DNA of 49,288 nucleotides from the IMG/VR virus record IMGVR_UViG_3300043331_000681, positions 1 through 49,288 of that record, one strand, 5' to 3'. This document shows positions 4,183-25,639 of the stretch, piece by piece. Source of the stretch: a virus. The position numbers and the translations under genes are program-made. The notes beneath the pieces are model-generated. The model made no database searches and was not told the DNA's origin. It saw only the letters and a list, made by a program, of their open reading frames with translations. The number at the start of each line of letters is the position of its first letter. Position 1 is the stretch's first letter.

Positions 4183-4192
4183 GAGCTGCACA

Positions 4193-5013: not shown

Positions 5014-5309
5014 TCTTCACACCTTGCACCACCAGCACCGAAGCGCTGTTCCTCCGCCTCGACGCCGAAGGACTCCCTGACCCGACGCTCGGTGTCCTCG
5101 GGGTGCCGGTTGAGGCATGGGACGACACCGGGACACCGTATGTCGCCGGCCGCAACGGGCTGGTGTCGGTGGACAACTTCCGCTCCAACCGGTTCGTGTT
5201 CTCCCGCCTGTCGTTCCCCACGAGCGCGAGCGCGCCCGATGCGGAGGAGCCGCAACGATTCCCGATCAAGGACCCCGGCGAAGACCCCGGCCGAGGAGGA
5301 GCCCGATGA
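5010..5309 (+). CDS. Hypothetical tail-region protein, 99 residues
   Basis: GTG start overlapping the preceding stop. The sequence is beta-rich (ALFLRLDAEGLPDP, GVPVEAWDDTG, FRSNRFVFSRL) with a proline/acid-rich tail. It sits between the two tube-like genes. Such proteins recur at this site in actinophages without known function. Confidence 0.6.
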   Translation: MIFTPCTTSTEALFLRLDAEGLPDPTLGVLGVPVEAWDDTGTPYVAGRNGLVSVDNFRSNRFVFSRLSFPTSASAPDAEEPQRFPIKDPGEDPGRGGAR

Positions 5310-5740: not shown

Positions 5741-6137
5741 GGAATCCGGCCTCGGGTTCTCGGTCGCCGTCGATGACAGCTCGACCTCGGCCCAGACCAT
5801 CAGCAACGACTTCACCAACTTCGAGTTCGCCACCCCCCGCGGCGTCCAGGACGTGACCGGCGTCGACAAGAGCGCCATGGAGCGGCTCCTGCTCCTGGCC
5901 GACTTCAGCATCACCTTCAACGGCGTCTTCAACGACGCCGCCAACATGTCGCACGCGGTCTTCAAGACGGTCCCCTCAACCTCGGTTGCCCGGACGACCA
6001 CCCTGACCCACTCGGGGCAGACCCTGGCACCAGAGGTGCTTTACACCGACTACGCCATCACCCGAGCCAACGACGGCGCCCTGACCTTCTCGGCGCCGGG
6101 TGTGCTCTCGGATGGGACCGTGCCCACCTGGTCGTAG
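5733..6137 (+). CDS. Second tail-tube-like protein
   Basis: 134 residues, a compact single domain. It has the features of actinophage tube proteins: SGLGFSVAVDDSS at the N-terminus, NDFTNFEFATPRGVQDVTG, FNGVFNDAANMSHAV and RANDGALTFSAPG, ending SDGTVPTWS. The FNDA..H and RANDG.L.F motifs also occur in the 248-residue protein at 4193-4939, so the two are likely paralogues. Which forms the tube and which a minor ring cannot be decided here. Confidence 0.75.
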   Translation: MAKESGLGFSVAVDDSSTSAQTISNDFTNFEFATPRGVQDVTGVDKSAMERLLLLADFSITFNGVFNDAANMSHAVFKTVPSTSVARTTTLTHSGQTLAPEVLYTDYAITRANDGALTFSAPGVLSDGTVPTWS

Positions 6138-6174
6138 CAGCCGCTACGACCCTGGAGCCAATGGAGGAGGCCCA

Positions 6175-6510
6175 GTGACATACGAGCCGGTGAGGATCGA
6201 CTCGACCAAGGTCGTCGATGAGGAGCGGGAGCCGCTGTTCTACATCGACGACCGCGAGTACACGATCCCCAAGGAGCTGCGCGCCAACGTCGTTGCCCGC
6301 TATCTCCAGGATGTGCTCGACCACGGCCAGGAGCACGCCCTGGCCGCAGCGATGCGTGAGGTCCTCGGCGAGGAGGCCATGGAGGCGCTGGCCGACAGCG
6401 ACGCCGTCACCAGCGACCAGATGCAATCCATCATGCGGATCGTTGAGCAGAAGCTGATGGGCCAGATGAAGCAGTCACTGGGAAACTCCCGCAGCGGACG
6501 GCGGAGGTAG
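6175..6510 (+). CDS. Tail assembly chaperone, short form (G-like)
   Basis: 111 residues from a GTG start with RBS GGAGG. It is acidic and helical, just upstream of the tape-measure gene, as for lambda gpG. The frame carries the slippery heptamer GGGAAAC near its 3' end, seven codons before the stop, so most ribosomes should make this short form and a fraction the GT fusion (see 6175-6878). It binds the tape measure during tail assembly. Confidence 0.85.
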   Translation: MTYEPVRIDSTKVVDEEREPLFYIDDREYTIPKELRANVVARYLQDVLDHGQEHALAAAMREVLGEEAMEALADSDAVTSDQMQSIMRIVEQKLMGQMKQSLGNSRSGRRR

Positions 6511-6878
6511 CCTGGATTGCCTCCCACCTCGACGACCTCGACGCGGATTTCCGCGCCTTCTACCGCATCGACGGCATCGGCGATAGCCGCTTCGGTGGGC
6601 TGTCCGCTGCTCGGTTTGTGCTGCTCTGCGAGCGGGTCTTTGCCTACCGCGGAGTCATGCGCGCTCTGGCCGAGGCTGAGGACGAGAAGGGAGGCGCTCC
6701 TGGTGACCTGGCCGACCTGATCGAGGAGGAGGACCTGGAGGACGAAGTCGACCCACAGAACCTAGACGAGCTGGGACTGACGATGGAGGTGAGGACAGAT
6801 GCGGATAGTGATGGTGCCGGGCTGGCAGGCCAAGGTTCGGGGGCCGATGCTCCAGTTGCAGCGCAAGATCGCGGGTGA
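6175..6878 (+). CDS. Tail assembly chaperone frameshift product (GT-like)
   Basis: Reading the short form to Asn at 6484-6486 and slipping back one base at GGGAAAC enters a frame that stays open to 6878. The fusion would be about 234 residues. The added part starts LPQRTAEVAWIASHL and contains helical, very acidic segments (LADLIEEEDLEDEVDPQN). There is no good independent start for the second part. Programmed -1 frameshifting between chaperone genes is well established for siphoviruses. Confidence 0.85.
6480..6486 (+). promoter_or_regulatory. -1 programmed frameshift site GGGAAAC
   Basis: The heptamer lies in the exact X XXY YYZ phase of the upstream frame (G GGA AAC). Both tRNAs could re-pair after a one-base backward slip. 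The new frame (relative phase -1) is open for 130 codons. It lies 21 bases before the stop of the zero frame. Confidence 0.88.
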
Positions 6879-7158
6879 GGTCGCCGACGACGCCCGAACC
6901 AACATCATCCGCGCCGGCCTCATCGACACCGGCGACCTGCTCATGAGCATCAACCAGCAGGGCACACGGGTCTACGTCGGGACCGACCACTGGGCGCCGC
7001 ACGAGTACGGCGCTCGCCCTCACACGATCCGCCCGGTTATCAAGCGCGCCTTGTGGTGGGAGGACATGCACGTCGGCCATCCCATCGCCTTCGCCAACCA
7101 CCCCGGCAACCGCGAGTCCGCGTTCATGCGCCGGGCCCTGTTCACCAAGAGAGGCTAA
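6799..7158 (+). CDS. Minor tail / HK97 gp10-like protein
   Basis: 119 residues, overlapping the end of the chaperone fusion by 80 bases. It has the pattern of HK97 gp10-type proteins: an N-terminal helix with ARTNIIRAGLIDTGDLLMSI, then YVGTDHWAPHEYGARPHTIRP. In other phages this protein links neck and tail. Here it sits between chaperone and tape measure, an unusual order. Assignment by motif pattern, moderate certainty. Confidence 0.6.
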   Translation: MRIVMVPGWQAKVRGPMLQLQRKIAGEVADDARTNIIRAGLIDTGDLLMSINQQGTRVYVGTDHWAPHEYGARPHTIRPVIKRALWWEDMHVGHPIAFANHPGNRESAFMRRALFTKRG

Positions 7159-8717
7159 GGGGGTGTGTCCGAATCGCGTTCAAAATCGCGGATGGCTACG
7201 TTGAGGTATCTGGCCGTCTAGACGAGGCCTCGTTCCGCCGGGCTGCCAAGGACGCCGGCGAACGAGCTGGCCGTGACGCCTCCGGCCACTTCACAACCGC
7301 CTTCGGGCGAGGCCTGACCCGTGACCGGGAGCGGAACCGCCGCGGGTTCTTTCACTTCCTGCGGATGCTGTTGACGCCGGACAAGGCCCGGATCGGGGCA
7401 CTGCTGCATCCCCTGGAGAGCGCCCTGTCGGTCCCTCTGGTGGCCATGCTCGGCGCCAGCATCGTGTCGATTGGCGCCGGCGCCATCGCTGCCGCGATCT
7501 CCTCGGCCATCCTCCTCGGCATCGGCGGGGTCGTGGTCGGCGGGGCAGCGGCGCTGCTGGGCAACAAGCTGAAGGGCCCGTTCGAGCGGGCCAGCAATAC
7601 CATCATCGCCTCTCTGCGCCGGGCCGCAGCTCCCCTACAGAACGAGTTTGTTCAGGCTCTGCGGGATGTCGCACATTGGGTCCAACATAACGAGGGCATG
7701 TTTGCCGCCCTTTTCAAGGCGGCGGAGCCGATCATCCCTATTTTGGTTGACATCTTCAAAGAGTTCGGCGACGAGATTTTGCCGACCATTGGCCAGATCA
7801 TGCCGTTCATCGTCGATGCCTTCAAGATCCTCGCAGCTAGGACACCTGAGATCGCTGACGCCATGACGAAGCTTCTGAAGGCCATGGCGGACGAAGAGAC
7901 CTTGATCGCCTTCAACACCTTGCTGTCCGGCCTGATCGGCACCATCAATTTCCTGGCCGGCGCCTTCAGCTTCCTCACCAGGTCTTTCAACAACGACATC
8001 GAGGACCTGAAGGAGGGCAAGCATCGTCTCGGCATGCTGATCGAGGACATCCGGGGCTTCCTGGACCGCATCCCGGGCCGGAAAGTCCTGAAGTTCCTGT
8101 TCCAACCAGGCAATGCCATCGGGACCATCCTGCGGGTGACCGGCCTGACCAAGGCCATCCCCAAGGCCTGGCGGACCCTGATGCGGTTCCTCGGCGGAGG
8201 TGGCGCTGTTGGCTGGGCGCTGCGGGTGACCGGGGCGATCAAGCGCATCCCCAAGAGCTGGCGGACCCTGATTCGCGCCATCGTCAACACGGGCCCGATC
8301 CGCTCGTTCATCGGCTGGCTGCGCCGCATCCCCCGGAATGTGACCACGACTATCACCACCGTCACCCGCAACATCGTCCGGAGCATCTTCCAGTCGGTCA
8401 ACCCGTTCGCCCGCGCCAGCGGCGGCATCGTCGGCGCCCAGGGCATGCAGACTGGCGGCGTGGTCGGGGCCCGCCAGGTCCTGGTCGGCGAAGCTGGGCC
8501 GGAGCTGGTCGACCTGCCGTTTGGGTCACGGGTCCGCTCCGCTGGCGACACCCGACGAGCCATGACCGAGAACACCTCGGGGCGAGGTGGGCGGCCCATT
8601 GAGGTTCGCCTCATCATCGACTCAGCCGGCGCCCGCATGGACGACCTCTTTGTCGAGGTCCTCCGCAAGGCTGTTGCCTCACGAGGCGGCAACGTCCAGG
8701 TGGCGCTCGGCCGATGA
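7053..8717 (+). CDS. Tape measure protein
   Basis: The open frame codes for 554 residues from a GTG at 7053, but the protein probably starts near 7158-7170 (RIAFKIADGYVEVSGRLDEA matches usual tape-measure N-termini). No normal start codon is in frame there: the sequence reads GTC, and a GTG at 7163 is out of frame. An indel or unusual start is possible. It has two long hydrophobic segments (about 127-170), a helical middle and a glycine/Arg-rich C-terminus. Two 30-residue units containing IPK(A/S)WRTL lie 90 bp apart at 8131 and 8221. About 515-550 residues suggests a short tail of roughly 80 nm. Confidence 0.8.
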   Translation: MVGGHARRPSHRLRQPPRQPRVRVHAPGPVHQERLRGCVRIAFKIADGYVEVSGRLDEASFRRAAKDAGERAGRDASGHFTTAFGRGLTRDRERNRRGFFHFLRMLLTPDKARIGALLHPLESALSVPLVAMLGASIVSIGAGAIAAAISSAILLGIGGVVVGGAAALLGNKLKGPFERASNTIIASLRRAAAPLQNEFVQALRDVAHWVQHNEGMFAALFKAAEPIIPILVDIFKEFGDEILPTIGQIMPFIVDAFKILAARTPEIADAMTKLLKAMADEETLIAFNTLLSGLIGTINFLAGAFSFLTRSFNNDIEDLKEGKHRLGMLIEDIRGFLDRIPGRKVLKFLFQPGNAIGTILRVTGLTKAIPKAWRTLMRFLGGGGAVGWALRVTGAIKRIPKSWRTLIRAIVNTGPIRSFIGWLRRIPRNVTTTITTVTRNIVRSIFQSVNPFARASGGIVGAQGMQTGGVVGARQVLVGEAGPELVDLPFGSRVRSAGDTRRAMTENTSGRGGRPIEVRLIIDSAGARMDDLFVEVLRKAVASRGGNVQVALGR

Positions 8718-11455
8718 CATTCCCGGCCACCCCCCTGGATGCCACCTACGAGCTACATCTTGATGGCGCCTGGACCGACATCACTGCCTTGGTCTATGGC
8801 CGCGACGATGTCACCATCAGCCGCGGCCGGTCCAGCGAGGGCAACCAGGTCGACCGCTCAACCTGCTCCCTGACCGCCAACAACCGCTCTGGCGACCTCA
8901 CCCCCAGGAACCCCACCGGCGCCTACTACGGCGCCATCGGCCGCAACACCCCCCTCCGCGTCCGTGTCGAGCCAGCCACCGACCCCCATGTGCAGCTCGA
9001 CACCAACCTCGCCAGCATCCGCACCCCCGACTCGACCGGACTGTCCATCACCGGCGACCTGGACGCGCGGATCGACCTGGAATGCGACGACTGGAGCAAC
9101 ATCACCGGTCTATGCGGTAAGTGGGGCGCTGCCGGGCAACGCTCCTGGCAATTCGTCATCGACACCGACCACACCCTGCGGCTGCTGTGGTCAGCGAACG
9201 GCACCACCGAGCTATCAGCCGACTCAACCGCAGCAGCAACCATCGCTGACGGCGACCGGATCGCGTTACGGGCCACCATCGACGTGAACAACGGCGCTGC
9301 TGGCCGAACCATCACCTTCTACACCGCTTCCACCATCGACGGGTCATGGTCTCAGCTTGGCAGCGCCGTCGTTCAGGCCGGGACGACCAGCATCTTCGAC
9401 TCGACCGCTGACACCCAGGCCGGCGAGCTTGAGAACGGCGCCTACTTCGGTCCCGTGGGCCGCGTGTACGGGCTGGAGGTGTATTCCGGGATCGCTGGGA
9501 CTTTACGGGCTGCCTTCGACGGCTTCGACGATGTTGCTCCAGCTCGCGCCACCATGACCGACTCGCTGGGGAACATCTGGACTCCTGACGACGACGCCTA
9601 CCTCGTCGACCCTCGCATCCGGTTCTGCGGAGAGGTGTCGGACTGGCCGGTTCGCTGGGATATCAGCGGCACCGACGTGTATGTGCCGTTGGAGGCCTCC
9701 GGCATCCTGCGACGCCTCGACCAAGGCCAGAGCCCGCTACGGTCCACCATGTACCGCGGCACCATCGGGACCTCTGGGCTTCGGGCGTACTGGCCATGTG
9801 AGGACGGCGAGGACGCAACTGCGCTCGCCTCTGCGCTGGATGGCCACCCACCCATGATCATTCCCGGTACTGACGATCCGAACTTCGCGGCATTCTCCGA
9901 CTTCAAATGCTCTGGGTCGCTTCCCACTCTCGGCGATAGCGCATGGGTCGGCGCGGTCCCCACCTACACCAACACCAATGTCATTCGGGTGTGGTTCCTG
10001 TGTGCGATACCCGCGGGCGGCGCAACTGACGGCGAGGCGCTCATCCACATCCATACCTCCGGAACGGCGTCCCGGTGGCGGCTGCTGTATGGCACCGGCG
10101 GCAATCTGACTCTCAAAGCCAATGACGGCGCCGGCACAGAAATCCTCTCCTCCGGACCGTGGGGATTCGACCTCAACGGCAAGCTGGTGCGGATCGCAGT
10201 CCAGCTTTCCGAGGATGGCGCCGATGTTGATTGGGACCTGGCCACGCTTGAGGTGGGCTCCACGATCGGTGTCGGCACCTCTGACACCCTTGCCTCGTAC
10301 AGTGTGAACCGCTGCACGACGATCGTGGTCAATTCCGGCGATACCGTCGGCGAAGAGGTCGCCATTGGCCACGTCGCGGTCTGGGACGAGACAGCCAGCA
10401 TCTACGACCTCGACGATGAGCTGAACGCTTATGCCGGGGAAACCGCTGGCCGCCGCATTCTGCGGCTGTGCGAGGAGGAAGGCATCGCGGCCCGCAGCGT
10501 CGGCGACCCGGACGACTCGACCCCGCTGGGCTACCAGCTCCCCAACACCCTCCTCGACCTGCTCCGGGAGGCCGAGCAGGGCGACGGCGGCATTCTCTAT
10601 GAGCCTCGGGACATGCTCGGGTTGGCCTATAGGACCCGCGAGTCGATGTACCGGCAAACCGCCAAGCTCACCCTCGACTACGCCGCCAATGACCTCTCCG
10701 GCATCGAGCCGGTCGACGACGACCAGCATGTCCGCAACGACATCACCGTTACCCGCATCGGGGGCAGCTCAGCGCGGGCAGTGCGGGAGACCGGGGCTCT
10801 GTCCACCTCGGCGCCACCGGACGGCGTCGGCCGCTACGACGAGGGCGTCAACCTCAGCCTGGAAGCAGACCACCAGGCTGCCGATCAGGCCGGATGGCGG
10901 CTGCATCTTGGCACCACCGACGAGTATCGGTACCCGGTCCTTAGCGTCGACCTCGCCCGCTCCAACTTCACCAGCGACAGCGCGCTCACCCTCGCCGCCC
11001 AGGATCTCGACATCGGCGACCGCCTGGTGGTCGAGAACCCGCCGGCGTGGCTGCCTCCTGACGACATCAGCCAGCTCGCCCAAGGCTTCACCGAGACCCT
11101 GGCGAACTTCATCCACCGAATCGGCGTGAACTGCTCCCCGGAAACACCGTGGCAGCAGACCGGTGAGTACGACGCTACCGATGTTCGCTACACCAGTGAC
11201 GGCACCGTCACCGCCGAGGCGCTAGACACCACCGAGACCGGCGTGGATGTGACCACCGCGTCCGGGCCGGTCTGGTCGGATGCCGACGGCGACTTCGACA
11301 TCGTCATCGGTGGGGAGCGCATGACCGTCACCTCAATCAGCGGGTCCGGCGCCAGCCAAACATTCACTGTGACCAGGTCGGTCAACGGTGTCGTCAAGAG
11401 CCATTCGTCCGGCGCGGCTGTTGAGCTGGCCGAGCCAACCGTCTACGTCATCTAG
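8714..11455 (+). CDS. Large minor tail protein (baseplate hub / central tail protein)
   Basis: 913 residues, overlapping the tape-measure stop (ATGA). Residues 1-100 carry the common actinophage minor-tail start (YELHLDGAWTDITALVYGRDDVTISRGR). Residues about 100-260 and 350-560 look like LamG/ConA-like jelly rolls. Residues 570-800 hold the hub-like region (RRILRLCEEEGIAARSVGD, TLLDLLREAEQGDGGILYEP). The C-terminus is a small beta unit resembling the inserts of the connector protein. It likely forms the tail tip that touches the host surface. Confidence 0.8.
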   Translation: MTFPATPLDATYELHLDGAWTDITALVYGRDDVTISRGRSSEGNQVDRSTCSLTANNRSGDLTPRNPTGAYYGAIGRNTPLRVRVEPATDPHVQLDTNLASIRTPDSTGLSITGDLDARIDLECDDWSNITGLCGKWGAAGQRSWQFVIDTDHTLRLLWSANGTTELSADSTAAATIADGDRIALRATIDVNNGAAGRTITFYTASTIDGSWSQLGSAVVQAGTTSIFDSTADTQAGELENGAYFGPVGRVYGLEVYSGIAGTLRAAFDGFDDVAPARATMTDSLGNIWTPDDDAYLVDPRIRFCGEVSDWPVRWDISGTDVYVPLEASGILRRLDQGQSPLRSTMYRGTIGTSGLRAYWPCEDGEDATALASALDGHPPMIIPGTDDPNFAAFSDFKCSGSLPTLGDSAWVGAVPTYTNTNVIRVWFLCAIPAGGATDGEALIHIHTSGTASRWRLLYGTGGNLTLKANDGAGTEILSSGPWGFDLNGKLVRIAVQLSEDGADVDWDLATLEVGSTIGVGTSDTLASYSVNRCTTIVVNSGDTVGEEVAIGHVAVWDETASIYDLDDELNAYAGETAGRRILRLCEEEGIAARSVGDPDDSTPLGYQLPNTLLDLLREAEQGDGGILYEPRDMLGLAYRTRESMYRQTAKLTLDYAANDLSGIEPVDDDQHVRNDITVTRIGGSSARAVRETGALSTSAPPDGVGRYDEGVNLSLEADHQAADQAGWRLHLGTTDEYRYPVLSVDLARSNFTSDSALTLAAQDLDIGDRLVVENPPAWLPPDDISQLAQGFTETLANFIHRIGVNCSPETPWQQTGEYDATDVRYTSDGTVTAEALDTTETGVDVTTASGPVWSDADGDFDIVIGGERMTVTSISGSGASQTFTVTRSVNGVVKSHSSGAAVELAEPTVYVI

Positions 11456-11466
11456 GAGCTGCTGTC

Positions 11467-11919
11467 ATGCCAAGCGCCGGCGACCTTGTCCGAGCCAGCG
11501 ACATCCTGGTGCGCTGCGGTTGCCGGGTCCGCCGCGTCGCCACCCAAAGCATTAACAACAACGCTGCTGCCTCGATGTCATGGGATACCGAGGATGAGGA
11601 CACTGACGGCTTCATCGCCGTCACCTCGACCACCGTAACCATCCCGACCGACAAGGGCGGCCTGTACGCCATCACGGTCATGCTCGACCCGGCCGGCACC
11701 ATGAGCAACCGGCTCCTGATGGACCTCAAGCCAACCAGCTCTATCACCGGCCTCCCGGCCCAGTTCCGCTCCGAGCCGAACACCGACCAGACCATCTACT
11801 CGGCCTCATGGACGATCCCACTAGCCGAAGCCGACACCTTCGTCGTCGAGGCATTCCACACCGACGGCGCAGCGGTCGACTTCACCGGCTGGATGTCTTG
11901 TTACCGGGTGGGCGTGTGA
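11467..11919 (+). CDS. C1q/TNF-like minor tail or fibre protein
   Basis: 150 residues, beta-rich. It opens MPSAGDLVRASDILVRCG, has a TIPTDKGGLYAITVMLDP strand pair and ends DFTGWMSCYRVGV, a pattern seen in small trimeric tail-tip proteins of actinophages. It follows the tail hub gene after 11 bases. Probable receptor-contacting fibre head, by fold pattern and position. Confidence 0.6.
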   Translation: MPSAGDLVRASDILVRCGCRVRRVATQSINNNAAASMSWDTEDEDTDGFIAVTSTTVTIPTDKGGLYAITVMLDPAGTMSNRLLMDLKPTSSITGLPAQFRSEPNTDQTIYSASWTIPLAEADTFVVEAFHTDGAAVDFTGWMSCYRVGV

Positions 11920-12380
11920 CAGTCGCTGCCCGGGTGCGGCGGGCCATCATCCGGCACATCCCGCTCGCGCTGCTGCGCGAGTCGCTGGTGCTGTTCATCG
12001 CCGCCCAAGGTGTGCTCGTGGCCGCCATCCACTTCGCCGGGCTCGGCACCCCAACCCGCATGACCCAGCTCCTCCCCGCATGGATGATCGAGCTATGGCA
12101 CGGCGAGGTCCTCATCGGCTGCCTGCTGGTCCTGATCGGCCTGATCCGCAACTACCCGCGCATGGAAGCCGTCGGCCTCAGACTCATGGCGCCCTGCCAG
12201 CTCGTCTACGCCATCGCCATCATCATCGTGGCTGGCTGGGCTGGCACCGGCTCCGCGCTCCCACAGGTGATGTTCGGTGTGGCCTGTGTCGGCCGGGCGC
12301 TGTGGCTCACCGAGTACCTCCAGGCTCTCCGCGCCGGGCGCGAGCTGGCCGCGGAGTTACAGGCAGAAGATGAGCCGTGA
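11916..12380 (+). CDS. Four-helix membrane protein, possible holin
   Basis: 154 residues from a GTG overlapping the previous stop. Four hydrophobic segments are visible: LVLFIAAQGVLVAAIHF, VLIGCLLVLIGLI, LVYAIAIIIVAGWAG and MFGVACVGRALWL. A basic start and an acidic C-terminus (ELQAEDEP) fit a cytoplasmic tail. Membrane proteins at this place, just before the endolysin, are usually holins or lysis regulators. Confidence 0.6.
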   Translation: MTVAARVRRAIIRHIPLALLRESLVLFIAAQGVLVAAIHFAGLGTPTRMTQLLPAWMIELWHGEVLIGCLLVLIGLIRNYPRMEAVGLRLMAPCQLVYAIAIIIVAGWAGTGSALPQVMFGVACVGRALWLTEYLQALRAGRELAAELQAEDEP

Positions 12381-12634: not shown

Positions 12635-12852
12635 TCGAGTACCAGCCCGCCGACAACGGCGAGGAGCACCTAGAGCTGACACGGACCGCCCAGGAAGGCG
12701 TCGACATCCTGGAGCGCGCTGCCCGCGCCGGTGACCCTACCCACTACCAGGAAATCCAGGCGCTGCTATTGCGCGACAGCGACCCAGGCGGCGACGACCA
12801 CCCCGACCAGACACCGGGACCGCTGCCCGAGGGGCTGGAGGTGGATGGCTGA
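12631..12852 (+). CDS. Small acidic protein, lysis cassette
   Basis: 73 residues, ATGA overlap upstream and a one-base overlap with the endolysin start. It has one helical segment (TRTAQEGVDILERAARAG) and a Pro/Asp-rich tail. No homology recognised. It is co-translated with the lysis genes. Confidence 0.55.
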   Translation: MIEYQPADNGEEHLELTRTAQEGVDILERAARAGDPTHYQEIQALLLRDSDPGGDDHPDQTPGPLPEGLEVDG

Positions 12853-13637
12853 TGGCCACAGCCGCCCAGTACGGCGCGCTCATGCGCTCCCAGCTCGGCG
12901 TCAAAGAGAACCCGCCCGGCTCCAACCAGGTCCCCTACTCGGCCTGGTACGGCGTCGCTGCCCCCTGGTGCCAGATGTTCCAGAACTGGGCACACGTCCG
13001 GCTGGGCATGACTCCACCCGGGTATGTCGCCGGCACCGTCCCCAAAGGGTCGGCCTACACCCCCACCTGCGCCGACTGGTTCCGACGCCTCGGCCGCTGG
13101 ACAACCCGGCCGACGGCTGGCGCGCTCGTCTACTACGACTTCCCCGGCGACGGCGTCAACCGCATCAGCCACGTCGGCTGGGTCGAGGAGGTCCGCCCGG
13201 ACGGCTCCATCGTGGCCATCGAGGGCAACACCGACTCAGCCGGGAGCCGCACAGGTGGCCAGGTCATGCGCAAGATCCGCAGCTCAGGAATCGTCGGCTA
13301 CGGCCGGCTGGCATACGAGGAGGATGACATGGCCCTATTCGACGACGTAGCCGCGTTCGAGCGCGCTGTCGAGCGCGCCGTCGACCACATCATGAGCCAA
13401 GGGCTCACCGGCGACCGCGAGGGCGCCATCTTCGGCTGGGCATCGCGGCTACCCCGGGTCGAGAAAGGCATCAACACCCTCCTTGACCGTCCCAGCCCAT
13501 CGCCGGCCGACATCGCCGCCGCGGTGGTGGCCGCCCTACCCGCCGGGTCGGTCGACACCGCCGTCGTCGAGGCCGCTGTCGAAGAGGTCATCGGCCGAAC
13601 CCACCTGGCCGTCCAACCAGAAGGAGCGCCGTCATGA
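12852..13637 (+). CDS. Endolysin, CHAP peptidase
   Basis: 261 residues. The first about 160 form a CHAP amidase/peptidase domain: the nucleophile is Cys40 (APWCQMFQNW), the general base His107 (ISHVGWVEEV) and a polar residue lies in AIEGNTD (about 123-127). The rest is a helical region (FERAVERAVDHIMSQGLTG and ADIAAAVVAALPAG) that may bind the wall or regulate the enzyme. It should cut peptide bonds of host peptidoglycan. No mycolyl-esterase (lysin B) gene is seen, so a mycolic-acid outer layer in the host is not indicated. Confidence 0.85.
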   Translation: MATAAQYGALMRSQLGVKENPPGSNQVPYSAWYGVAAPWCQMFQNWAHVRLGMTPPGYVAGTVPKGSAYTPTCADWFRRLGRWTTRPTAGALVYYDFPGDGVNRISHVGWVEEVRPDGSIVAIEGNTDSAGSRTGGQVMRKIRSSGIVGYGRLAYEEDDMALFDDVAAFERAVERAVDHIMSQGLTGDREGAIFGWASRLPRVEKGINTLLDRPSPSPADIAAAVVAALPAGSVDTAVVEAAVEEVIGRTHLAVQPEGAPS

Positions 13638-13897
13638 GCAAGCTCACCACCTCGGCCTGGAACCGAGTAGGCCGGACCATCCTCCAGTTCCTGCTGTCGG
13701 CCGGCTTCGTCGAGCTGGTTCTCCAGCAACTCGCCGACCTTAACCTTGACCCGCAGGCCCAGCTCGCCGTGACCGGCGCCGTCCAGGCCGTGGTCGCGTT
13801 CCTGCATCGCCGGCTGCTCGACCCATCGCCGATTCCGTCGCTGGTGGACGGCAACGGCCACCTCACCACAGCAAACGGAGGCCTCACGCAGGTCTAA
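13634..13897 (+). CDS. Small hydrophobic protein after endolysin, holin candidate
   Basis: 87 residues overlapping the endolysin stop by 4 bases. It has two moderately hydrophobic helices (TILQFLLSAGFVELVLQQLA and LAVTGAVQAVVAFLHRRLL), basic flanks and a polar tail. Size and position match small class II holins of actinophages. It is the last gene of the rightward late operon. Confidence 0.6.
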   Translation: MSKLTTSAWNRVGRTILQFLLSAGFVELVLQQLADLNLDPQAQLAVTGAVQAVVAFLHRRLLDPSPIPSLVDGNGHLTTANGGLTQV

Positions 13898-13934
13898 GGA
13901 CCGGTGGCTAGGATTCCTCCGCCTAGCCGCCGCA

Positions 13935-13970
13935 AGCAGCGGGCCCGACGCCCACCTCGGGCCCGCTGCT
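13935..13970. terminator. Bidirectional transcription terminator
   Basis: A perfect 14-bp stem (arms 13935-13948 and 13957-13970, core GCAGCGGGCCCGA) with an 8-base loop lies between the convergent late operon and the relaxase gene. It has no long T-run, usual in high-GC actinobacteria. It can serve both strands. Confidence 0.8.
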
Positions 13971-13987
13971 GCTGTCCGGAGAACCAG

Positions 13988-16900
13988 TCACTCCTTGCGG
14001 TCTAGGCTCAGCTCAACAACCCGCTCCATCACCGGGCCGCCCACCTCCCGGCCACGCTCAACCGCTCTGCCGGCCTGCTCAGCGACCCGGGTGAACATCC
14101 CACTAACGGCGTCTTTCGCCTTGCCGGCCACCTCACCAGCCTGCCGCCACGCCCGAAGCTGACCAAGATCCTTCGGCTTGTCACCCAACGCCCGCTCACC
14201 ATATGACCGGTACCGGTCACGGTAGGCCTCAACCGCTGCGGCGGCCTGCCGCCACGCCTCCCGGGCTGGCGCCGTCCACTCCACCGTCGGGCGGCCCAGC
14301 TCGGCGACCAGATGCGCGGGCGGATCTATCTCTAACGTACGAACGCCGAGAAGTGTCCGCTGTCCCAGCTCGGCCGTGACCGCTTGCGCTCTAGCCCGGG
14401 TCGGCGCTGTCCGCTCAGCCCAGCCGACGCGGCGGCGCTCGTGGTCGTCGACCTCCCGGAACCGCTCCTCAGCCCGATCCGCCCCGACCCGGTTCAGCCC
14501 GGACGGGTCACGCTCGTAGGCGCGCTCGGCCTGGTCGCGCTTGTCCCGCAGCAGCCGCCACTCTGTCCGTCTGGACCGGGGCTGGCCGGCCAGCTCGCGG
14601 TCGAGACGGGTACGTTCCCGCCGGAGCTGGCCGACGCTCATGTGCCGCAGGACAGCGCCGGCCTCCTGGTCGATGCCGACGGTCTCCCCACCGGGTCGGC
14701 TCATGCCGGCCTCGACCTGCTCGCGGTTTGTCCGCCGGGCCCCGTAGCGTTCCACGCCGTCGGGGCTCTCGATGTCCGGCTGGACGCCGTAGATCCGGAC
14801 GGCTGTCCGGACACGGGACAGCGCCACGTAGAACCACTCCGAGGTGCCGGACCCTCCGGCGCGGACGAACGCTCGGTCAACGCTCAGGCTCTGCGTCTTG
14901 TGCGTGGTCGTGCTGTAGGCGTGGCCGAGGCTGGGCCCGCCTCCGGCGCCGTCCTTGGCCAGGTAGGAGCTGGTGAGGGTGATGTGCTGGCCGTCCTCCC
15001 GCTTGATGAGGATGGTTCCTTGCTTCTTGTCGAACGCCTCGACACGGGCCCGGGTGCCGTTGGCCACTCCCTCCTTGCGGTTGTTCCGGCGGCAGACCAC
15101 CAGGTCGCCGACCGAGTAGCGCCGGCCCCGGACCTCGATCTCGTCGGCGCCGAGGTGGCCGGCGGCCCGGCGGAACTCGCGGGCGAGCTGGTTGAGCCGC
15201 TCGGCGTCGCCCCGCAGGTAGGTCAGCATCACGGCCGAGTCGCCCCGGCGGAAGGCCTCCCACCAGTCGCGGAGCATGGCCGCGTCGGCGGTCTGCTGGT
15301 CGCGGGCCCAGGTGACCCGGCCGCCGGCGCCGTACACGGCCAAGGCCTCGGTGCCCTTGCCCTGGCGGACCAGCTCCAGCGCGCTCTTGTCCAGCTCTGA
15401 CCGCTGCCGGCGGTTCACGGTCAGCTCGGACGCGCCGAGGCGCTGGCGGAGCGCCTTGAACCCTCCGCCCGCCTCGATGGCCTGGAGCTGGCGCTCGTCG
15501 CCGACCAGGACCACCTTGCAGCCGGCCCGCTCGGCGTGCTCCAGGAGCCGGGCCAGCTTGCGTGTCCCGACCATGCCGGCTTCGTCGACCACAAGCACCC
15601 CTTGGGGAAGCTGGTCGCGGTCGGCATCGAGGCCGAGGAGCAACGAGTCCACTGTCGATGTGGGTAGGGCAGCAGATTGCTCCAACTGGGTAGCCGCAAT
15701 CCCTGTTGGCGCTGCTCCTCGAACCTCGATCCCTTGACGGGTCCAGGCGTCCCTCGCAACGCCTAGCGCGGTTGTCTTCCCGGTGCCTGCCCGGCCTACG
15801 GCCACGGACACCCCGGAGCCGTCGCCGCACACAGCGCGGACCATAGCCGCCTGGTCGTCGCCTAGCGTGATAGGCGAGGCAGCTAACGCGGCCCTAACGT
15901 GGCCGGGCTCGACGACGGCGACGCCCTCGCCCTGGCGGCGGACAGCTCCGGCGACCAGCTCGCGCTCGGTCGCCTGAAGCTCGGCGGTTGTCCAGCGGGC
16001 CGTCTCGCCCAGGACCGGACAGACCCGGGGGTCGCGGACGAAGGCGGCGGACACGTTGACCCACTCTGTCCGCGAGGTGGCCTCGTGTCCGGTCCGGCGG
16101 ACAGCATCCCGGACATCGCGGAGGTCGAAGGTGGCCGAGTGGGCGGTGATGCCATCTTGTCCGGACAGACGTGCGAACAGGGCGTCGAGGTTGTCCGGCC
16201 GCTGTCCGGACGACTGTCCGGTGACGGCGGACACGTCGAAGCCGGCCGCCTGCTGGGCCCACCGGTCACGCAGCGTCGCCTCGGACACCTGCTCCTTGTC
16301 CGGACGGGTCGCGGTCGCCACGTACTGGGCTACTTTTGGGGACCAGGCCTCCCCTCGGGCCTCCTTCGACTCCTTGGCCAGCTCGATCTCGCCTCGCCGC
16401 GTCGAGAACTGCTGGAGTAGCTCGTCGGGGATGCCTCGGATCTCCCACTGGCCCGTGCGCGGGTTCTGCTCCCAGTCGACGCCCAGCGCCTCCCGGAGCC
16501 GGCCACGCATCAGGACCTCGTAGGTTGCGTCGGCGCCCAGGGCCCAGTGGTAGAGGTCGTGGCCGTCCAGGGTGGTCCACTTCCCATCGACGCCCTGGAT
16601 GCGGTTGGCGATGATGCCGTGCGAGTGCAGCAGCGGGTCACCGGCCCGGCTCTGACGGTGCCCGTACACGGCCACGAGCAGCCCCTGCCCGTCGATGTGG
16701 ATCTTCCCGCCAGCGCCTCGCCTGGTCCCGACGTTCTCCTCCAGGTCGAGGATGGCGTCGGCCACGCTCTGCCGGTGGATGGCCTCAACGGTCCGCTGGA
16801 CATGCTCGGGCCCGAGTCCCCACAGCACCGACACGCTCTTGACCGGCCGAAACACCATGTCAAAGGCAGGACGGCCGTTCTTTCTGCTGGTCGCCCGGCC

Positions 16901-17134
16901 CAGCTTCTCGCCGGTCGCCGGGTTCTTGCCGTCGAACAGGGCCCGGAACTGCTCCGGGGTGACGTGTCCCTCCAGGCCGAAACGGGCGGCCATCGTGCCA
17001 GCCCAGTAACCAGGCGCTTCGCCGTGGCCGGAGTAGTAGCGCTCAGCCTGGAACACGCCCAGCTCGTCCTGGGCGACCTCGCGCAGGTAGTAGTTCGCGC
17101 TCTGCGCCCCCAGGTGGGCGATGTCTGCAACCAT
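13988..17134 (-). CDS. MobF-family conjugative relaxase-helicase (TrwC/TraI-like)
   Basis: 1048 residues with RBS GGAGAGGAGG. The N-terminal relaxase domain has the tandem tyrosine pair Tyr15-Tyr16 (SANYYLRE) and a three-histidine metal site at His159, His170 and His172 (GHRQSRAGDPLLHSHG), with exactly the 11 and 2 residue spacing of TrwC. A RecD-like helicase follows: Walker A GRAGTGKT (447-454), Walker B VLVVDEAG (513-520), and late motifs STTTHKTQSLSVDRAF and VALSRVRTAVRIY. The C-terminus is helical and charged. This enzyme family nicks plasmid DNA at oriT, stays bound to the 5' end and unwinds the strand. All catalytic parts appear intact. It is not a standard phage gene. Plasmid-like rolling replication is an alternative role. 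Confidence 0.93.
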   Translation of the reverse strand: MVADIAHLGAQSANYYLREVAQDELGVFQAERYYSGHGEAPGYWAGTMAARFGLEGHVTPEQFRALFDGKNPATGEKLGRATSRKNGRPAFDMVFRPVKSVSVLWGLGPEHVQRTVEAIHRQSVADAILDLEENVGTRRGAGGKIHIDGQGLLVAVYGHRQSRAGDPLLHSHGIIANRIQGVDGKWTTLDGHDLYHWALGADATYEVLMRGRLREALGVDWEQNPRTGQWEIRGIPDELLQQFSTRRGEIELAKESKEARGEAWSPKVAQYVATATRPDKEQVSEATLRDRWAQQAAGFDVSAVTGQSSGQRPDNLDALFARLSGQDGITAHSATFDLRDVRDAVRRTGHEATSRTEWVNVSAAFVRDPRVCPVLGETARWTTAELQATERELVAGAVRRQGEGVAVVEPGHVRAALAASPITLGDDQAAMVRAVCGDGSGVSVAVGRAGTGKTTALGVARDAWTRQGIEVRGAAPTGIAATQLEQSAALPTSTVDSLLLGLDADRDQLPQGVLVVDEAGMVGTRKLARLLEHAERAGCKVVLVGDERQLQAIEAGGGFKALRQRLGASELTVNRRQRSELDKSALELVRQGKGTEALAVYGAGGRVTWARDQQTADAAMLRDWWEAFRRGDSAVMLTYLRGDAERLNQLAREFRRAAGHLGADEIEVRGRRYSVGDLVVCRRNNRKEGVANGTRARVEAFDKKQGTILIKREDGQHITLTSSYLAKDGAGGGPSLGHAYSTTTHKTQSLSVDRAFVRAGGSGTSEWFYVALSRVRTAVRIYGVQPDIESPDGVERYGARRTNREQVEAGMSRPGGETVGIDQEAGAVLRHMSVGQLRRERTRLDRELAGQPRSRRTEWRLLRDKRDQAERAYERDPSGLNRVGADRAEERFREVDDHERRRVGWAERTAPTRARAQAVTAELGQRTLLGVRTLEIDPPAHLVAELGRPTVEWTAPAREAWRQAAAAVEAYRDRYRSYGERALGDKPKDLGQLRAWRQAGEVAGKAKDAVSGMFTRVAEQAGRAVERGREVGGPVMERVVELSLDRKE

Positions 17135-17166
17135 GCCGCTCCTCCTCTCCGGCCGTTAGGAGCCAC

Positions 17167-17652
17167 TCACGGCCCGGGAATGACCACTTTTCGAGCGCGC
17201 CGTCGCTCGAACTGGCGCCGGATGTTCTCTGCGCGTGTCACAACCTCCAGGTGCTCTGGCCTGACGCACCAGACGACCTCGCACAGATGGTCGGGCTCCA
17301 TCCCCTCCGGGATAGCTCGGCCGTCGAGCTGGACTGCGTACTGGTGGGCGTAGACGACCTGCTCACCAGTCCAGAAGACGCCATATGGCGCTGGCGTCGA
17401 CCGGGCCCCGGTCCAGACGTGGCACGGGCCCAGCTCCGGGTGATACGGCGGTAGAGGTCCGTCCTGGTCGACCTTTGCCCGGAACCGCTCCTCGGGCGTG
17501 CCCTGATGAAGCACCATCCGCACGACGGTCGGGTCGCCGTGGCGCTGGAGTCGCTTGTTGTGCTTCTGGCATAGCCCGTTGCCGGCGTACCGGCCGTCGC
17601 AGCCGGGCATCAAACAGGTCAGCGGTCGCAGCTTTAGCGGCGTCTCAAGCAT
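17167..17652 (-). CDS. HNH endonuclease (HNH_3 type)
   Basis: 161 residues from ATG 17652, chosen because AAAGGA lies upstream; a GTG at 17679 is an alternative. The N-terminus has a zinc-like cluster (CLMPGCDGRYAGNGLCQKH). The HNH core reads AHQYAVQLDGRAIPEGME-PDHLCEVVWCVRPEHLE followed by RAENIRR. Such genes are often free-standing homing endonucleases. It lies 32 bp upstream of the relaxase, so it may be a mobile insertion in this operon. Confidence 0.85.
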   Translation of the reverse strand: MLETPLKLRPLTCLMPGCDGRYAGNGLCQKHNKRLQRHGDPTVVRMVLHQGTPEERFRAKVDQDGPLPPYHPELGPCHVWTGARSTPAPYGVFWTGEQVVYAHQYAVQLDGRAIPEGMEPDHLCEVVWCVRPEHLEVVTRAENIRRQFERRRARKVVIPGP

Positions 17653-17768
17653 GGGCCGGAGTGTCCTTTGCTTGGGCACCTAGCGGAGCTAGTGCATAGA
17701 CTGTCCTGGCGTTTGAGCGTTCGTGAATCGGTGACAGAGCAGATGCCGGCGAGCAGGGCTCGCGGAGG
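17653..17768. other. Intergenic segment with inverted repeat, weak oriT candidate
   Basis: 116 bp between two leftward genes. It holds an imperfect stem (CTAGC-GGA-GCTAG at 17680-17692, extended by CAC/GTG with one bulge) and a lower-GC stretch to its right. MobF origins of transfer usually sit next to the relaxase and contain such inverted repeats, but I cannot recognise a nic sequence. Confidence 0.25.
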
Positions 17769-17984
17769 CTAGTCGACGTGTGCGTCGAGCCAGCGGGCGA
17801 GCTGGCGTGACTGCGGGCCGTCGAGCGGGATGAGCGTGTGCTCGGTGCCGTGGAACACGGTGACGCGGAGGCCGGCGCCTTCGGCGGTGAGGTGTAGCTC
17901 ACGATGCTCGCCGCCAGCGTCGATAACGACCAAGGTCCACGACTCGTCGGTCTCGACCAGGCTTAGCTCCTGGATGCTGGCCAT
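17769..17984 (-). CDS. Small beta-rich protein, 71 residues
   Basis: ATG with a strong RBS (AAGGAGG). Sequence features: SLVETDESWTLVVIDAGGEH, a central LHLTAEGAGLRVTVFHGTE and a C-terminal helix SRQLARWLDAHVD. Its start overlaps the 3' end of the coupling protein by 86 bases in another frame, an unusually long overlap for this genome. Function unknown; the linkage to the mobilisation genes is notable. Confidence 0.65.
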   Translation of the reverse strand: MASIQELSLVETDESWTLVVIDAGGEHRELHLTAEGAGLRVTVFHGTEHTLIPLDGPQSRQLARWLDAHVD

Positions 17985-19809
17985 CCACCATCCCCTCCTT
18001 GTCGGGCGGGCCGGCTGCCCGCTGGGCCAGGGTCTTGTCCTTCTGCCACCACCGTAGCCGCAGCTTGCACGCTGGGAGGTGCCCGTACACGAGCACGCCT
18101 TCACCTGGCCGGGTCTCGCGGAGTAGCGCGGGCGGTGCAAGCCGGCGGTAGGCGACGTGCTCGGTTGCGGAGCGGCGGTCCTCCCCGGTCGTGGTCGACC
18201 GCTCGACCTCGGCGGAGTCGCCGATCAGCCTGGAGACAAGCTCTAGGCTGTCCTGGTCGGACAGGCCGGACAGGATGAGCTTGGCGCGGTGGTTGTTGAT
18301 GACCGTGGCTGCTTGCCGGCCGTACCGGTGTCGGACCTGGGCGCCGTCTTGGAAGATGGTGACGAGCTGGATGCCTTGTCCGGCGCCGGTCGAGGCGAGC
18401 TGGGCGAGTGCCCGGACAGGGGCGATGTTGCCGGCCTCGTCCAGGAGGACAAGGAGCCGGACATCCAGCGGTGTCCGTGTCCGCGCTGTCCGGTCCATCG
18501 CTGTCCGGACAACGGACATCACGAGCGCCTCCATGACCGGGCGGAGCCGCTCCTGCTCGTGCAGCGGCGCGTGCAAGTAGAGGGTGTTGGCGCCGTCGAG
18601 GAGTCGCTCGGGGACGATGGTGCCGCCGTCGAGCTGGCCGGGGGTGCATGCCCGCTCGACGTTCTCGTCGGCGAACACGTCCAGGGCGGCTTGGGCCGAG
18701 GTGATGGTGCCGGACCGCTGCCGAGGGTCTTCGTCCATGACCGACTTGAGTGCGAGGATGGCGTCTTCCTCGTCGTGGTCGGCGAGGATCTCCAGGATGG
18801 CCTCGGCCGCGTCGTTGTAGCGGGCGGCGGTGATCGCGTCTCTGGGGCTGCCGGGGGCGACGGCGCCTAGCTCGTCGATCCACCGTCGGACCTGGCCGAT
18901 GGGCTTGCCGGCGAGGACGGCGGCCCAGATGGCGGCGGAGACGATCCGCTCGCCGCGCTGCTCGAAAAAGCCTTTGGTGGCGTCGCCTAGCTCCTTGGTC
19001 TCCGCGCTCGCCTCGGTGAGCCAGCGGGCCAGCTCCCGGGCTTGGCGCCAGCTTGTGACGCCGGCCAGGATGTTCCAGGTTGCGCCCTGGACACCGAGAA
19101 GCCCGGCGGGGTCGAACACGAACACCTCTCCCTCGCGCCAGCGCGCAAGCCGGGTCGCCTCCAGGAGATCGCCCTTGACGGAGGTGACGACGGCGCAGCC
19201 TTCCCACTCCAGGAGAACGGGGATGGCGAGGCTGGAGGTCTTGTAGCTCTGGGTTGGGCCCATGACGAAGACGCTGTGCAGCTCCTCGACGGCGACCTGG
19301 AGACGCTGGCCGAGGTGGGCGGCGTAGGTGCCGAGCACGAGCCGGCCGGTGGCCTGGCCGGGGCGGACCAGGATGGAGCGCAGGTCGCGGGCGGTCCCCC
19401 ACCGGGCAGCTTGCCGCTCGCGGTGGGATCGGCCACGACGGCGGGGGCCGCGGAGGCCAGCCTTGAAGTTGTCGTAGAGCGCTCCGATGGTCAGCGCCAC
19501 CCATGACACGGCCGCGAGGACCAGGAACGCGACCAGGGCGACGACCCATTCGGGGGCGGGCAGCGCCTGGACGGCGGCAGGGGCCCCATTCTCCCGGCCG
19601 CCGAGCAGCAGGTCACCCCAGGAGATGAGGACGACGGCGGAGTCGGCGAAGGTGAGGTTGTTGTCCTGGAAACTGATGAGGGCCAGGAAACGAGCGGCGG
19701 CATAGACGAGCGCGGACAGGAACACGAGCACGGCGCCGGCGGCGATGCCGAGCGTGCCGAGCGGGCTAGCCGGCTTGCCGGTCACGAGGTTACGTTGTGG
19801 CTGTCGCAT
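17899..19809 (-). CDS. Type IV coupling protein, TraG/VirD4 family
   Basis: 636 residues with RBS GGGAGGA. Two N-terminal membrane segments (about 18-45 and 86-110) anchor a cytoplasmic ATPase. Walker A is GPTQSYKTS (184-192), with Tyr where the last Gly of the P-loop is usual. Walker B is LLVLLDEAGNI (452-462). VTSVKGDLLEATR and IFQDGAQVRHRYG are further family-like motifs. These hexameric motors carry relaxase-DNA complexes to a secretion channel. No VirB4/VirB6 channel genes are visible here, so the phage could at most be mobilised with a helper system. Confidence 0.9.
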   Translation of the reverse strand: MRQPQRNLVTGKPASPLGTLGIAAGAVLVFLSALVYAAARFLALISFQDNNLTFADSAVVLISWGDLLLGGRENGAPAAVQALPAPEWVVALVAFLVLAAVSWVALTIGALYDNFKAGLRGPRRRGRSHRERQAARWGTARDLRSILVRPGQATGRLVLGTYAAHLGQRLQVAVEELHSVFVMGPTQSYKTSSLAIPVLLEWEGCAVVTSVKGDLLEATRLARWREGEVFVFDPAGLLGVQGATWNILAGVTSWRQARELARWLTEASAETKELGDATKGFFEQRGERIVSAAIWAAVLAGKPIGQVRRWIDELGAVAPGSPRDAITAARYNDAAEAILEILADHDEEDAILALKSVMDEDPRQRSGTITSAQAALDVFADENVERACTPGQLDGGTIVPERLLDGANTLYLHAPLHEQERLRPVMEALVMSVVRTAMDRTARTRTPLDVRLLVLLDEAGNIAPVRALAQLASTGAGQGIQLVTIFQDGAQVRHRYGRQAATVINNHRAKLILSGLSDQDSLELVSRLIGDSAEVERSTTTGEDRRSATEHVAYRRLAPPALLRETRPGEGVLVYGHLPACKLRLRWWQKDKTLAQRAAGPPDKEGMVDGQHPGAKPGRDRRVVDLGRYRRWRRAS

Positions 19810-19834: not shown

Positions 19835-19875
19835 GGCCCGGCCGGCGGCTAGTGTCCTCGCCGTTCGGCCGGGCC
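19835..19875. terminator. GC-rich hairpin before the coupling-protein gene
   Basis: Perfect 10-bp inverted repeat (GGCCCGGCCG / CGGCCGGGCC) with an inner GGCG/CGCC stem, between the stop of the upstream gene (19915) and the coupling-protein start (19809). It could end or attenuate leftward transcription. A second small repeat (GACAG..CTGTC, 19892-19911) lies just upstream of it. Confidence 0.6.
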
Positions 19876-24414: not shown

Positions 24415-24827
24415 GCTGTACGCCCTAGCCATGCCATGAACGCCTCGAAGTCGGGGAACCAGCGCACATCAGGCAGGGTGTGAAACACGTGCTCGCGGGG
24501 ACCGACAAGGGCAAGCTGCTTGCGGGCGGCGTAGGCCCAACCCATCTCCCAGTGGCGCCCACCCTTACCGCCACCGTCTGCTGAGGTGAAGTTCACCACC
24601 ATGTCGGCGGCGGCCAAGTCGTCGAGGTCGACCTTTGCATACTTGGCGCAGTGGGCAGGGTCCTCGTTCAGCTTGGCGGCGACGAAGGATTCCAGGACAT
24701 CGCCGCCGTGCTGGTCGATCCAGCGTGACGAGACGGTGATGCCGATGCCGGCCAACTGGTCACGGTAGCTACGCATTTCAGCGTTCCGTGAGTAGCGGGC
24801 GGCAAGATAGACAACGTCAACACTCAC
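24411..24827 (-). CDS. Nucleoside 2-deoxyribosyltransferase-like protein
   Basis: 138 residues, Rossmann-like. Motifs: VYLAARYSRNAEMRSYRDQL, SRWIDQHGG, DLDDLAAADMVVNFT, GGRHWEMGWAYA and REHVFHTLP. This is the family layout of deoxyribosyltransferases/DUF4406-type proteins that exchange or cleave bases on nucleosides. In a phage it may adjust nucleotide pools or base-modification precursors. Confidence 0.7.
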   Translation of the reverse strand: MSVDVVYLAARYSRNAEMRSYRDQLAGIGITVSSRWIDQHGGDVLESFVAAKLNEDPAHCAKYAKVDLDDLAAADMVVNFTSADGGGKGGRHWEMGWAYAARKQLALVGPREHVFHTLPDVRWFPDFEAFMAWLGRTA

Positions 24828-25639
24828 GAGCTGCTCCTCTCGGCGTCGATGCGGGCGAGGGTCTTGCGGACCGTGTCGCGGGAGAACTGCGGTTCGACGG
24901 CGAGGATGCCGTCGACCGTCAGGACACCCTCGTCGACCAGCTCCCGGACCCTGCCGGCCACGGTTCCGTTGCGGGAGGTGCGGGCCGTGACCTGGCGGGT
25001 CTCGGTCACGGTCAGCTCGTCGACCTGCTCGGCCTCGACGGTCTCAGGACGGGCCAGGACCTGCGCCGGTTCCTGCTGGTCGGCGCGCTCCTGCCGTCGG
25101 ATGGCGGCGGCGTGGATGGCGTCACCTGGCGAGGTCAAGCCGAGGTCGACAGCGGCGCTCCAGGCCTGGAACGTGCGCACGGGGAACCGCGCCCACCGCG
25201 CGAGGCGGAACCGTGGCAGCGGCGCCTCGACAGCACCCTGGGCGCGCAGGTCGCGGCGGCGGAGCTGGCGGAGGATGACCTCGAACGTCAGGTACACGAG
25301 CAAGGTCATGGCGCCGAAGTAGATGGCGGCCGCGCGGCCCTGGCCGACGACCTCGGCATGCCAGTAGTTGAGGCCGGCGCCGAGACCGACCACGGCCCAG
25401 GCGAGGAGTCGGGGGAACACGGCGGCGTCGCCGGCGAGGACGGAGCGGAGGCCGAAGAAGGCGAGAGTGACGGCGAGGCCGTCGAGGGTCACGGGCACGA
25501 TGTACCGGGCGTCGCCGGTCAGGTCGAGGATGTCGGAGGCGAAGCCGACCAGGCCGGTCCAGCTCGCGGCGACGACGCAGGCGCCGACGACCACGAGCCA
25601 AGCGTAGCCGGCGCGGGCCGCCCACCTCTCGGCGGTCAT
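24824..25639 (-). CDS. DUF2637 (plasmid spread/Spd-like) membrane protein
   Basis: 271 residues. Four membrane segments in the first about 130 residues (AGYAWLVVVGACVVAASWTG; SDILDLTGDARYIVPVTLDG-LAVTLAFFG; FPRLLAWAVVGLGAGLNYWH; AAIYFGAMTLLVYLTFEVIL) match DUF2637, a family found with Streptomyces-type conjugative plasmids. The cytoplasmic C-terminus ends with a winged-helix-like region (RVRELVDEGVLTVDGILAVE). It adds to the plasmid-transfer character of this operon. Confidence 0.75.
   Translation of the reverse strand: MTAERWAARAGYAWLVVVGACVVAASWTGLVGFASDILDLTGDARYIVPVTLDGLAVTLAFFGLRSVLAGDAAVFPRLLAWAVVGLGAGLNYWHAEVVGQGRAAAIYFGAMTLLVYLTFEVILRQLRRRDLRAQGAVEAPLPRFRLARWARFPVRTFQAWSAAVDLGLTSPGDAIHAAAIRRQERADQQEPAQVLARPETVEAEQVDELTVTETRQVTARTSRNGTVAGRVRELVDEGVLTVDGILAVEPQFSRDTVRKTLARIDAERSSS

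Follow-up and report, generated by a model that had tools for sequence, protein, structure and literature searches.

A closed siphophage-type genome encoding a MobF relaxase-helicase and a type IV coupling protein

DNA transport by phages and by conjugative elements is usually regarded as two separate routes, and some described systems come close to joining them. In a survey of P1-like elements, a relaxase or an origin of transfer (oriT) was found in just two phage-plasmids, yet in 30 of the 38 P1-like plasmids (PMC10879196). Two P1-related oriT cases, which lack virion proteins, were reclassified as plasmids in 2026 (PMC12977533). The conjugative prophage Phi1207.3 of Streptococcus pyogenes (~52 kb) is transferred in a way that meets the operational definition of conjugation (PMC4260502). 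Here we analyze the IMG/VR virus record IMGVR_UViG_3300043331_000681 (49,288 bases), taken at its full length and called the window below. It encodes, in one closed phage genome, a MobF relaxase-helicase and a type IV coupling protein of the VirD4/TraG family, which we call the module. In the collections and literature searched, we found no other closed genome that pairs a full set of virion genes with both a complete MobF relaxase-helicase and a coupling protein.

Relaxase-helicase and coupling protein in a closed phage genome

The match of the relaxase to the TrwC profile PF08751 spans residues 11-297 of the protein (positions 3-284 of the 286 in the model), and a TraI helicase-associated domain is also recognized (E 1e-8). 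Compared by sequence with the PDB, the protein matches TraI (E 2.7e-26) and TrwC (E 2e-17). We aligned its motifs against 16 bacterial relaxases and found the catalytic residues in place: the tyrosine pairs Y15-Y16 and Y33-Y34, D92, and the histidines H159/H170/H172 (spacing 11 and 2). The gap between the two tyrosine pairs is 6 residues longer than in the 16 aligned homologues. The fused C-terminal superfamily 1 helicase has a Walker A motif GRAGTGKT at 447, a Walker B motif VVDEAGM at 515, and the later motifs. The protein is thus an apparently intact, full TrwC-type MobF relaxase with all catalytic and helicase motifs.

In addition to the VirD4/TraG profile, the coupling protein matches TraG-D_C (E 8.6e-20) and TrwB_AAD_bind (E 4.8e-12), and its profile matches the structures of TrwB and Cag5. 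Two hydrophobic segments start at residues 27 and 90 of its N-terminal part. A preliminary description of this DNA had proposed an intact MobF relaxase-helicase with a tyrosine pair and a 3-His site, and a coupling ATPase anchored in the membrane by two segments; the full-length domains, conserved residues, hydrophobic segments and VirD4/TraG/TrwB ATPase domains bear out both proposals. The Walker A motif of the coupling protein reads GPTQSYKT, with Tyr where the textbook GxxxxGK[ST] has Gly. In the alignment, the P-loop of bacterial homologues reads GPTQTHKT, GPTQSRKT, GPTQTMKT or GPTQSGKT. Because these homologues vary at that residue, where they may carry H, R or M, we take GPTQSYKT as a habit of the family and reject the idea that it marks decay of the gene. 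Strong Shine-Dalgarno sequences precede both the relaxase and the coupling-protein genes.

The first 93 bases of the record are identical to its last 93. Since the record closes on itself, the two genes are internal to one complete siphophage-type genome and not at the edge of a contig. The structural and packaging genes of this phage are complete. The head genes begin with the terminase at 42.7 kb and end with the capsid gene at 49,163; the series then crosses the ends of the record, and head-tail and tail genes follow from position 55 on. The capsid, portal, terminase and tail genes had been listed in the preliminary description; profiles confirm the terminase, portal, ClpP-like protease, capsid and CHAP endolysin, and synteny confirms the tail genes. 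Codon use in the module matches the rest of the phage: the GC content at third codon positions is 0.857 and 0.859 in the relaxase and coupling-protein genes, versus 0.869 in the structural and 0.848 in the early genes.

An AAA_10/VirB4 profile search of the genome gave no match. Because VirB4 is missing, the element is mobilisable at most, and we reject self-conjugation. In gene content, as known here from sequence alone, the window corresponds to a mobilisable element, i.e. a relaxase (and coupling protein) without a type IV secretion system (T4SS). No integrase was found among the long open reading frames (ORFs) of the window, as first described, and every ORF of the size of an integrase is otherwise accounted for.

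Relatives of the phage and of the module

A related terminase is encoded at 70 IMG/VR loci. The structural half of the window is that of a common phage group. The closest relative, G001 (50.2 kb), shares the terminase, portal, capsid and most tail genes, and the Streptomyces phage Dagobah and further IMG/VR records have the same gene order in this half. Most of the long relatives whose genes were compared one by one are 43-51.5 kb in length, and one of them (G041, 49.4 kb) is also self-closing. As the size of the window genome equals that of its relatives (46-51.5 kb), the whole genome with the module could be packaged. The non-structural half is largely its own, matches in these relatives being limited to the Rad52-like gene, the primase and a few other genes. 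Neither TrwC nor the coupling protein was found above the cut-off in 46 related virus records, about 25 of which are at least 35 kb, or in the isolates P1312 and Dagobah. Weak matches to TrwC in G025 and G026, and to the coupling protein in G046 (in a protein that looks FtsK-like), were below the cut-off and were discarded. Relatives of the terminase also occur on two ~100-kb Streptomyces plasmids (NZ_CP109332.1 and NZ_CP108279.1, 48-52% identical), the first of which is also annotated with capsid and head genes. Judged by these genes, the two are phage-plasmids of the terminase clade of the window.

Across phages in general, 50,697 phage records gave no match to the coupling protein and only partial matches to the relaxase. 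Single-sequence searches of IMG/VR revealed no close phage relatives of either protein, and a high-GC relaxase motif pattern had no match there. When IMG/VR was scanned with a DNA pattern and with profiles, further records with a TrwC relaxase did come up. It occurs in the same record as phage head or tail genes in G061, G055, G464 and G465, none of which was found to have a coupling protein, and in the same record as a terminase in G466. The profile scans identified one coupling protein, in G461, where it lies in a T4SS-type cluster directly after a prophage; this shows that virus calls can swallow a neighbouring conjugative element. G462 was rejected as a relaxase phage, its relaxase being outside the prophage. 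The preliminary description had called for a search for a MobF relaxase and a coupling protein beside a terminase, and we found relaxase, coupling protein and phage genes combined in no other phage record, in searches that may omit near-identical records.

Some of these records deserve a description in their own right. G061 (IMGVR_UViG_2866922325_000003, 42.8 kb) encodes a full MobF relaxase 44% identical to those of Arthrobacter plasmids, together with phage head and tail genes and a DarB-like antirestriction gene; it is possibly a mobilisable phage-plasmid of Micrococcales. In G464 (75 kb) and G465 (64 kb), a complete TrwC relaxase domain is found alongside phage structural genes. G055 is AT-rich (30% GC) and has its TrwC domain in a 733-aa protein without a helicase domain.

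Homologues of both proteins are found in bacteria. In the plasmid collection, the relaxase of the window is ~30% identical to many MobF relaxases. The best plasmid match of the coupling protein (37%) is on a plasmid of the acidimicrobial actinobacterium Iamia, and the same plasmid has a mobF gene and an SCO6880 gene. Genome searches revealed Acidimicrobiia homologues with up to 42% identity for the relaxase and up to 47% for the coupling protein. In one of these loci (G293), a homologous relaxase and coupling protein are side by side near a tyrosine integrase; in another (G182), the coupling-protein homologue adjoins VirB4 and a TrbL/VirB6-like gene. In phylogenetic trees, both proteins group with Acidimicrobiia homologues, with clade support of 97/96 for the coupling protein and 91/94 for the relaxase, and both are on long branches without a close partner.

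Proposed mobilisation and its alternatives

The module with its motifs, the closed genome without VirB4, the absence of the module in relatives and the presence of homologues in T4SS-bearing elements are established. From them we infer, with about even confidence for and against, that the window is a phage which has taken up a mobilisation module and which, when dormant, is probably an episome. A tailed actinobacterial phage would have captured the MobF relaxase-helicase and the coupling protein from a conjugative element of Acidimicrobiia or a neighbouring group. The circle of phage DNA, with its own primase, helicase, single-strand DNA-binding protein (SSB) and iteron-like origin, could maintain itself as an episome. 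After nicking an oriT on the circle, the relaxase would remain attached to the 5' end and unwind the DNA, and the coupling protein of the phage would deliver the complex of relaxase and DNA to a type IV secretion channel. This channel would be supplied by a co-resident conjugative plasmid or integrative and conjugative element (ICE), so that the virus would be mobilisable as well. For a relaxase paired with a coupling protein, mobilisation by way of a helper T4SS is the simplest use. The fuller claim, that a viable phage is also mobilised with its own relaxase and coupling protein and so has two independent routes between cells, is one that we advance tentatively and with slightly more doubt than belief.

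The primase-polymerase, the helicase, the SSB and the iteron-like cluster seem to fit autonomous replication of a circle. All four exact copies of CCCCGCGAC in the genome lie within 205 bp, for which the probability by chance is about 1e-6. The nearest folds to the model of the helix-turn-helix protein include the DNA-binding domains of phage CI/c2 repressors, albeit weakly (E about 0.2-0.3). Given this gene content, episomal lysogeny is plausible.

Several observations weigh against this picture of a mobilisable, episomal phage. No partition gene was seen in the window, and episomal lysogeny is uncertain because of this and of the weak evidence for a repressor. The search for an oriT by inverted repeats in the window gave unspecific hairpins only, and no relaxosome accessory protein was recognised in it. 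As no other member of the group has the module, its conservation within phages cannot be shown. The kinship of the genes alone points, with modest strength, to Acidimicrobiia or a neighbouring group as host; the homologues in the trees were mostly fetched from Acidimicrobiia, a sampling bias that bears on this assignment, and no relatives of the terminase were found in 395 Acidimicrobiia genomes. The host, the episomal state, the oriT and transfer itself are presented here as what the genes suggest.

Among the other explanations, one could suppose that the relaxase is an HUH nickase-helicase for rolling-circle replication or packaging of the phage, and that the coupling ATPase moves phage DNA at the membrane, without any conjugation. 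HUH relaxases are able to start rolling-circle synthesis, and the other phage records with a MobF relaxase and no coupling protein fit a replication role there. However, the genome already has a primase-polymerase, a replicative helicase, an SSB and an iteron-like cluster, its relatives manage without a relaxase, and a membrane coupling protein is not known to act in rolling-circle replication, so that we hold this to be unlikely. The two genes might instead be directed against rival conjugative plasmids, or protect the lysogen, for instance by jamming resident conjugation, and not move the phage at all. A lone coupling protein with a relaxase could titrate a channel, and plasmids are known to interfere with the coupling proteins of their rivals, as illustrated by PifC and Osa (PMC5696584). 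The full catalytic motifs of both proteins argue for normal activity instead. Since known inhibitors of conjugation of that kind are other, smaller proteins, this is the explanation to which we give the least credit.

The module might also be a recent or accidental passenger with no present function in the phage, as its single occurrence in the phage group and the absence of a visible oriT would allow. Against this stand the length and intactness of the two ORFs (1048 and 636 codons), which have all key motifs and the codon use of the phage, in a genome whose size is limited by packaging; we consider a passenger improbable, to the same degree as a role in replication. Finally, the record could be an assembly chimera, or a mobilisable plasmid with an inserted prophage. 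False pairs do occur in IMG/VR, as in G462 and G461, where the relaxase or the coupling protein is outside the prophage, and the joins of the window are judged from the assembled sequence alone, a point that also counts against mobilisation of the phage. Yet the exact self-closure, the size typical of related complete phages, the uniform codon use, the lack of an integrase around the structural genes and the position of the module between lysis and early phage genes make such an origin quite unlikely. The preliminary description would have abandoned its proposal upon chimeric joins at about 13.9 or 20 kb, or upon homologues confined to plasmids. The closed record and uniform codon use give no support to such joins. 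The homologues are indeed otherwise in bacterial conjugative elements, and the genome is closed and homogeneous.

If a phage can be mobilised in this manner, a packaged virus could reach new cells without having to adsorb to them as a phage and could take adjoining DNA along. Together with the relaxase-only phages of other groups, it would point to mobilisable phages as a recurring class; the combination may have arisen more than once, as the other phage records with a relaxase suggest. The overlap between relaxase-based mobility typing and virus typing also calls for caution.

Genome context and comparison with known systems

The module has the lysis cassette on one side and the early phage genes on the other (Table 1). 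The preliminary description placed it in the same operon as phage genes. It is indeed on the same strand as the early genes, but a gap of ~106 bp with a 10-bp inverted repeat intervenes, and an HNH gene separates the relaxase from the coupling protein. The same description mentioned a nearby DUF2637 protein. Its gene is in fact 5 kb away and also matches the phage family phrog_10376, so we rejected it as a plasmid marker. No sigma-70-like promoter and no Rfam RNA were found in the window.

Table 1. Features of the window (G numbers are related virus records; a dot marks features without strand)
Feature	Position	Strand	Evidence or remark
Direct terminal repeat	1..93	+	Exact copy of 49196-49288; record circularly closed, ~49.2 kb
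Head-tail/tail genes	2654..12380	+	Synteny with G001, G003, G005, G006, G041 and phage Dagobah
Lysis cassette: CHAP endolysin and small downstream gene	12852..13897	+	PF05257 E 1e-8; phrog_21825 endolysin
GC-rich hairpin where the convergent lysis and relaxase genes meet; likely bidirectional terminator	13930..13975	.	Read from sequence
MobF (TrwC/TraI-type) relaxase-helicase, 1048 aa	13988..17134	-	PF08751 E 4.4e-77; AAA_30 E 1e-53
HNH endonuclease between relaxase and coupling protein	17167..17652	-	HNH_3 E 2e-11
Possible small ORF, 54 aa, overlapping the end of the coupling-protein gene	17769..17933	-	Gene caller; no family matched
Type IV coupling protein (VirD4/TraG family), 636 aa	17899..19809	-	PF02534 E 1.7e-37
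Perfect inverted repeat, 10 bp, 21-nt loop, upstream of coupling protein; possible terminator or oriT element	19835..19875	.	
DUF2637 membrane protein	24824..25639	-	PF10935 E 8e-12; phage family phrog_10376 E 1.5e-22
Single-strand DNA-binding protein (SSB)	27848..28276	-	PF00436 E 7.5e-32
Rad52/Erf-like annealing protein	31955..32653	-	74% identical stretch in closest phage relative
Helix-turn-helix protein, possible CI-type repressor	34303..34644	+	Divergent from gene at 33856-34053; single-sequence model, predicted local distance difference test (pLDDT) 73
Primase-polymerase	34994..35965	+	PF09250 E 5e-40
RepA/DnaB-like AAA_25 replication helicase	36366..37538	+	PF13481 E 2.6e-26; phrog DNA primase/helicase
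Iteron-like cluster (CCCCGCGAC and variants), candidate replication origin	37555..37767	+	
Terminase large subunit (TerL)	42711..44003	+	PF04466 E 7e-10; 77% identical in G001
Portal protein	45540..46787	+	PF04860 E 1.7e-53; 73% identical in G001
ClpP-like head maturation protease	46777..47787	+	PF00574 E 3.7e-25
HK97-type major capsid protein	47784..49163	+	PF05065 E 7e-52; 71% identical in G001

Other genes of the window are of separate interest. A DpdA-like tRNA-guanine transglycosylase adjoins a Vut_1/YhhQ-type queuosine-precursor transporter (22106-22717 and 22698-23213, both on the minus strand), and the DpdA-like protein is 55% identical to one annotated in Arthrobacter phage Sonali; the two genes are likely a 7-deazaguanine DNA-modification pair. 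The window also encodes a C5 cytosine DNA methylase (29384-30688, minus strand, PF00145 E 6e-36) and a WhiB-like regulator (30692-30976). A GCAGG-rich, low-complexity tandem array (40949-41014) is in a stretch of about 1 kb with little coding signal before the terminase region.

Like the window, P1-like phage-plasmids and P1-derived plasmids have phage-type and conjugation-type genes on one replicon. However, the P1-derived mobilisable plasmids have lost the virion genes, whereas those of the window are complete and accompanied by a coupling protein, and the phage group and host of P1-like elements are unrelated to those of the window. Phi1207.3 shares with the window a terminase, a portal, a ClpP-like protease, a capsid and tail genes, but it integrates in the chromosome, and its description mentions no relaxase or coupling protein and leaves the mechanism of transfer as unknown (PMC4260502). 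Among the phage relatives, Streptomyces phage Dagobah (MT711977) has syntenic head and tail genes with 45-65% identity in several of them, and the terminase of Thermobifida phage P1312 (KT021004), which has an annotated FtsK-like ATPase and a recombinase, is 59% identical to that of the window; unlike the window, neither has a TrwC relaxase or a coupling protein. The MobF elements of Acidimicrobiia (the plasmid NZ_CP050949 of Iamia sp. SCSIO 61187, and the G293 and G182 loci) have a homologous relaxase and/or coupling protein, at best 35-47% identical. These lie among genes of plasmids or ICEs, in some cases including VirB4/VirB6, and the stretches read contain no structural genes of phages. 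G061, G055, G464 and G465 are unrelated phages without a coupling protein, and are compared here as records.

In view of the P1-like cases with a relaxase or an oriT (PMC10879196) and of the other relaxase-bearing phage records, the expression "new kind of phage-plasmid" used in the preliminary description was too strong. What stands of that interpretation is an intact pair of genes in a complete phage genome without an integrase, a plausible phage-plasmid, and a combination unmatched in the other phage records searched. Phage-plasmids with a relaxase or an oriT are already on record as rare exceptions, to which the window, judging from its genes, would add complete virion genes and a coupling protein.

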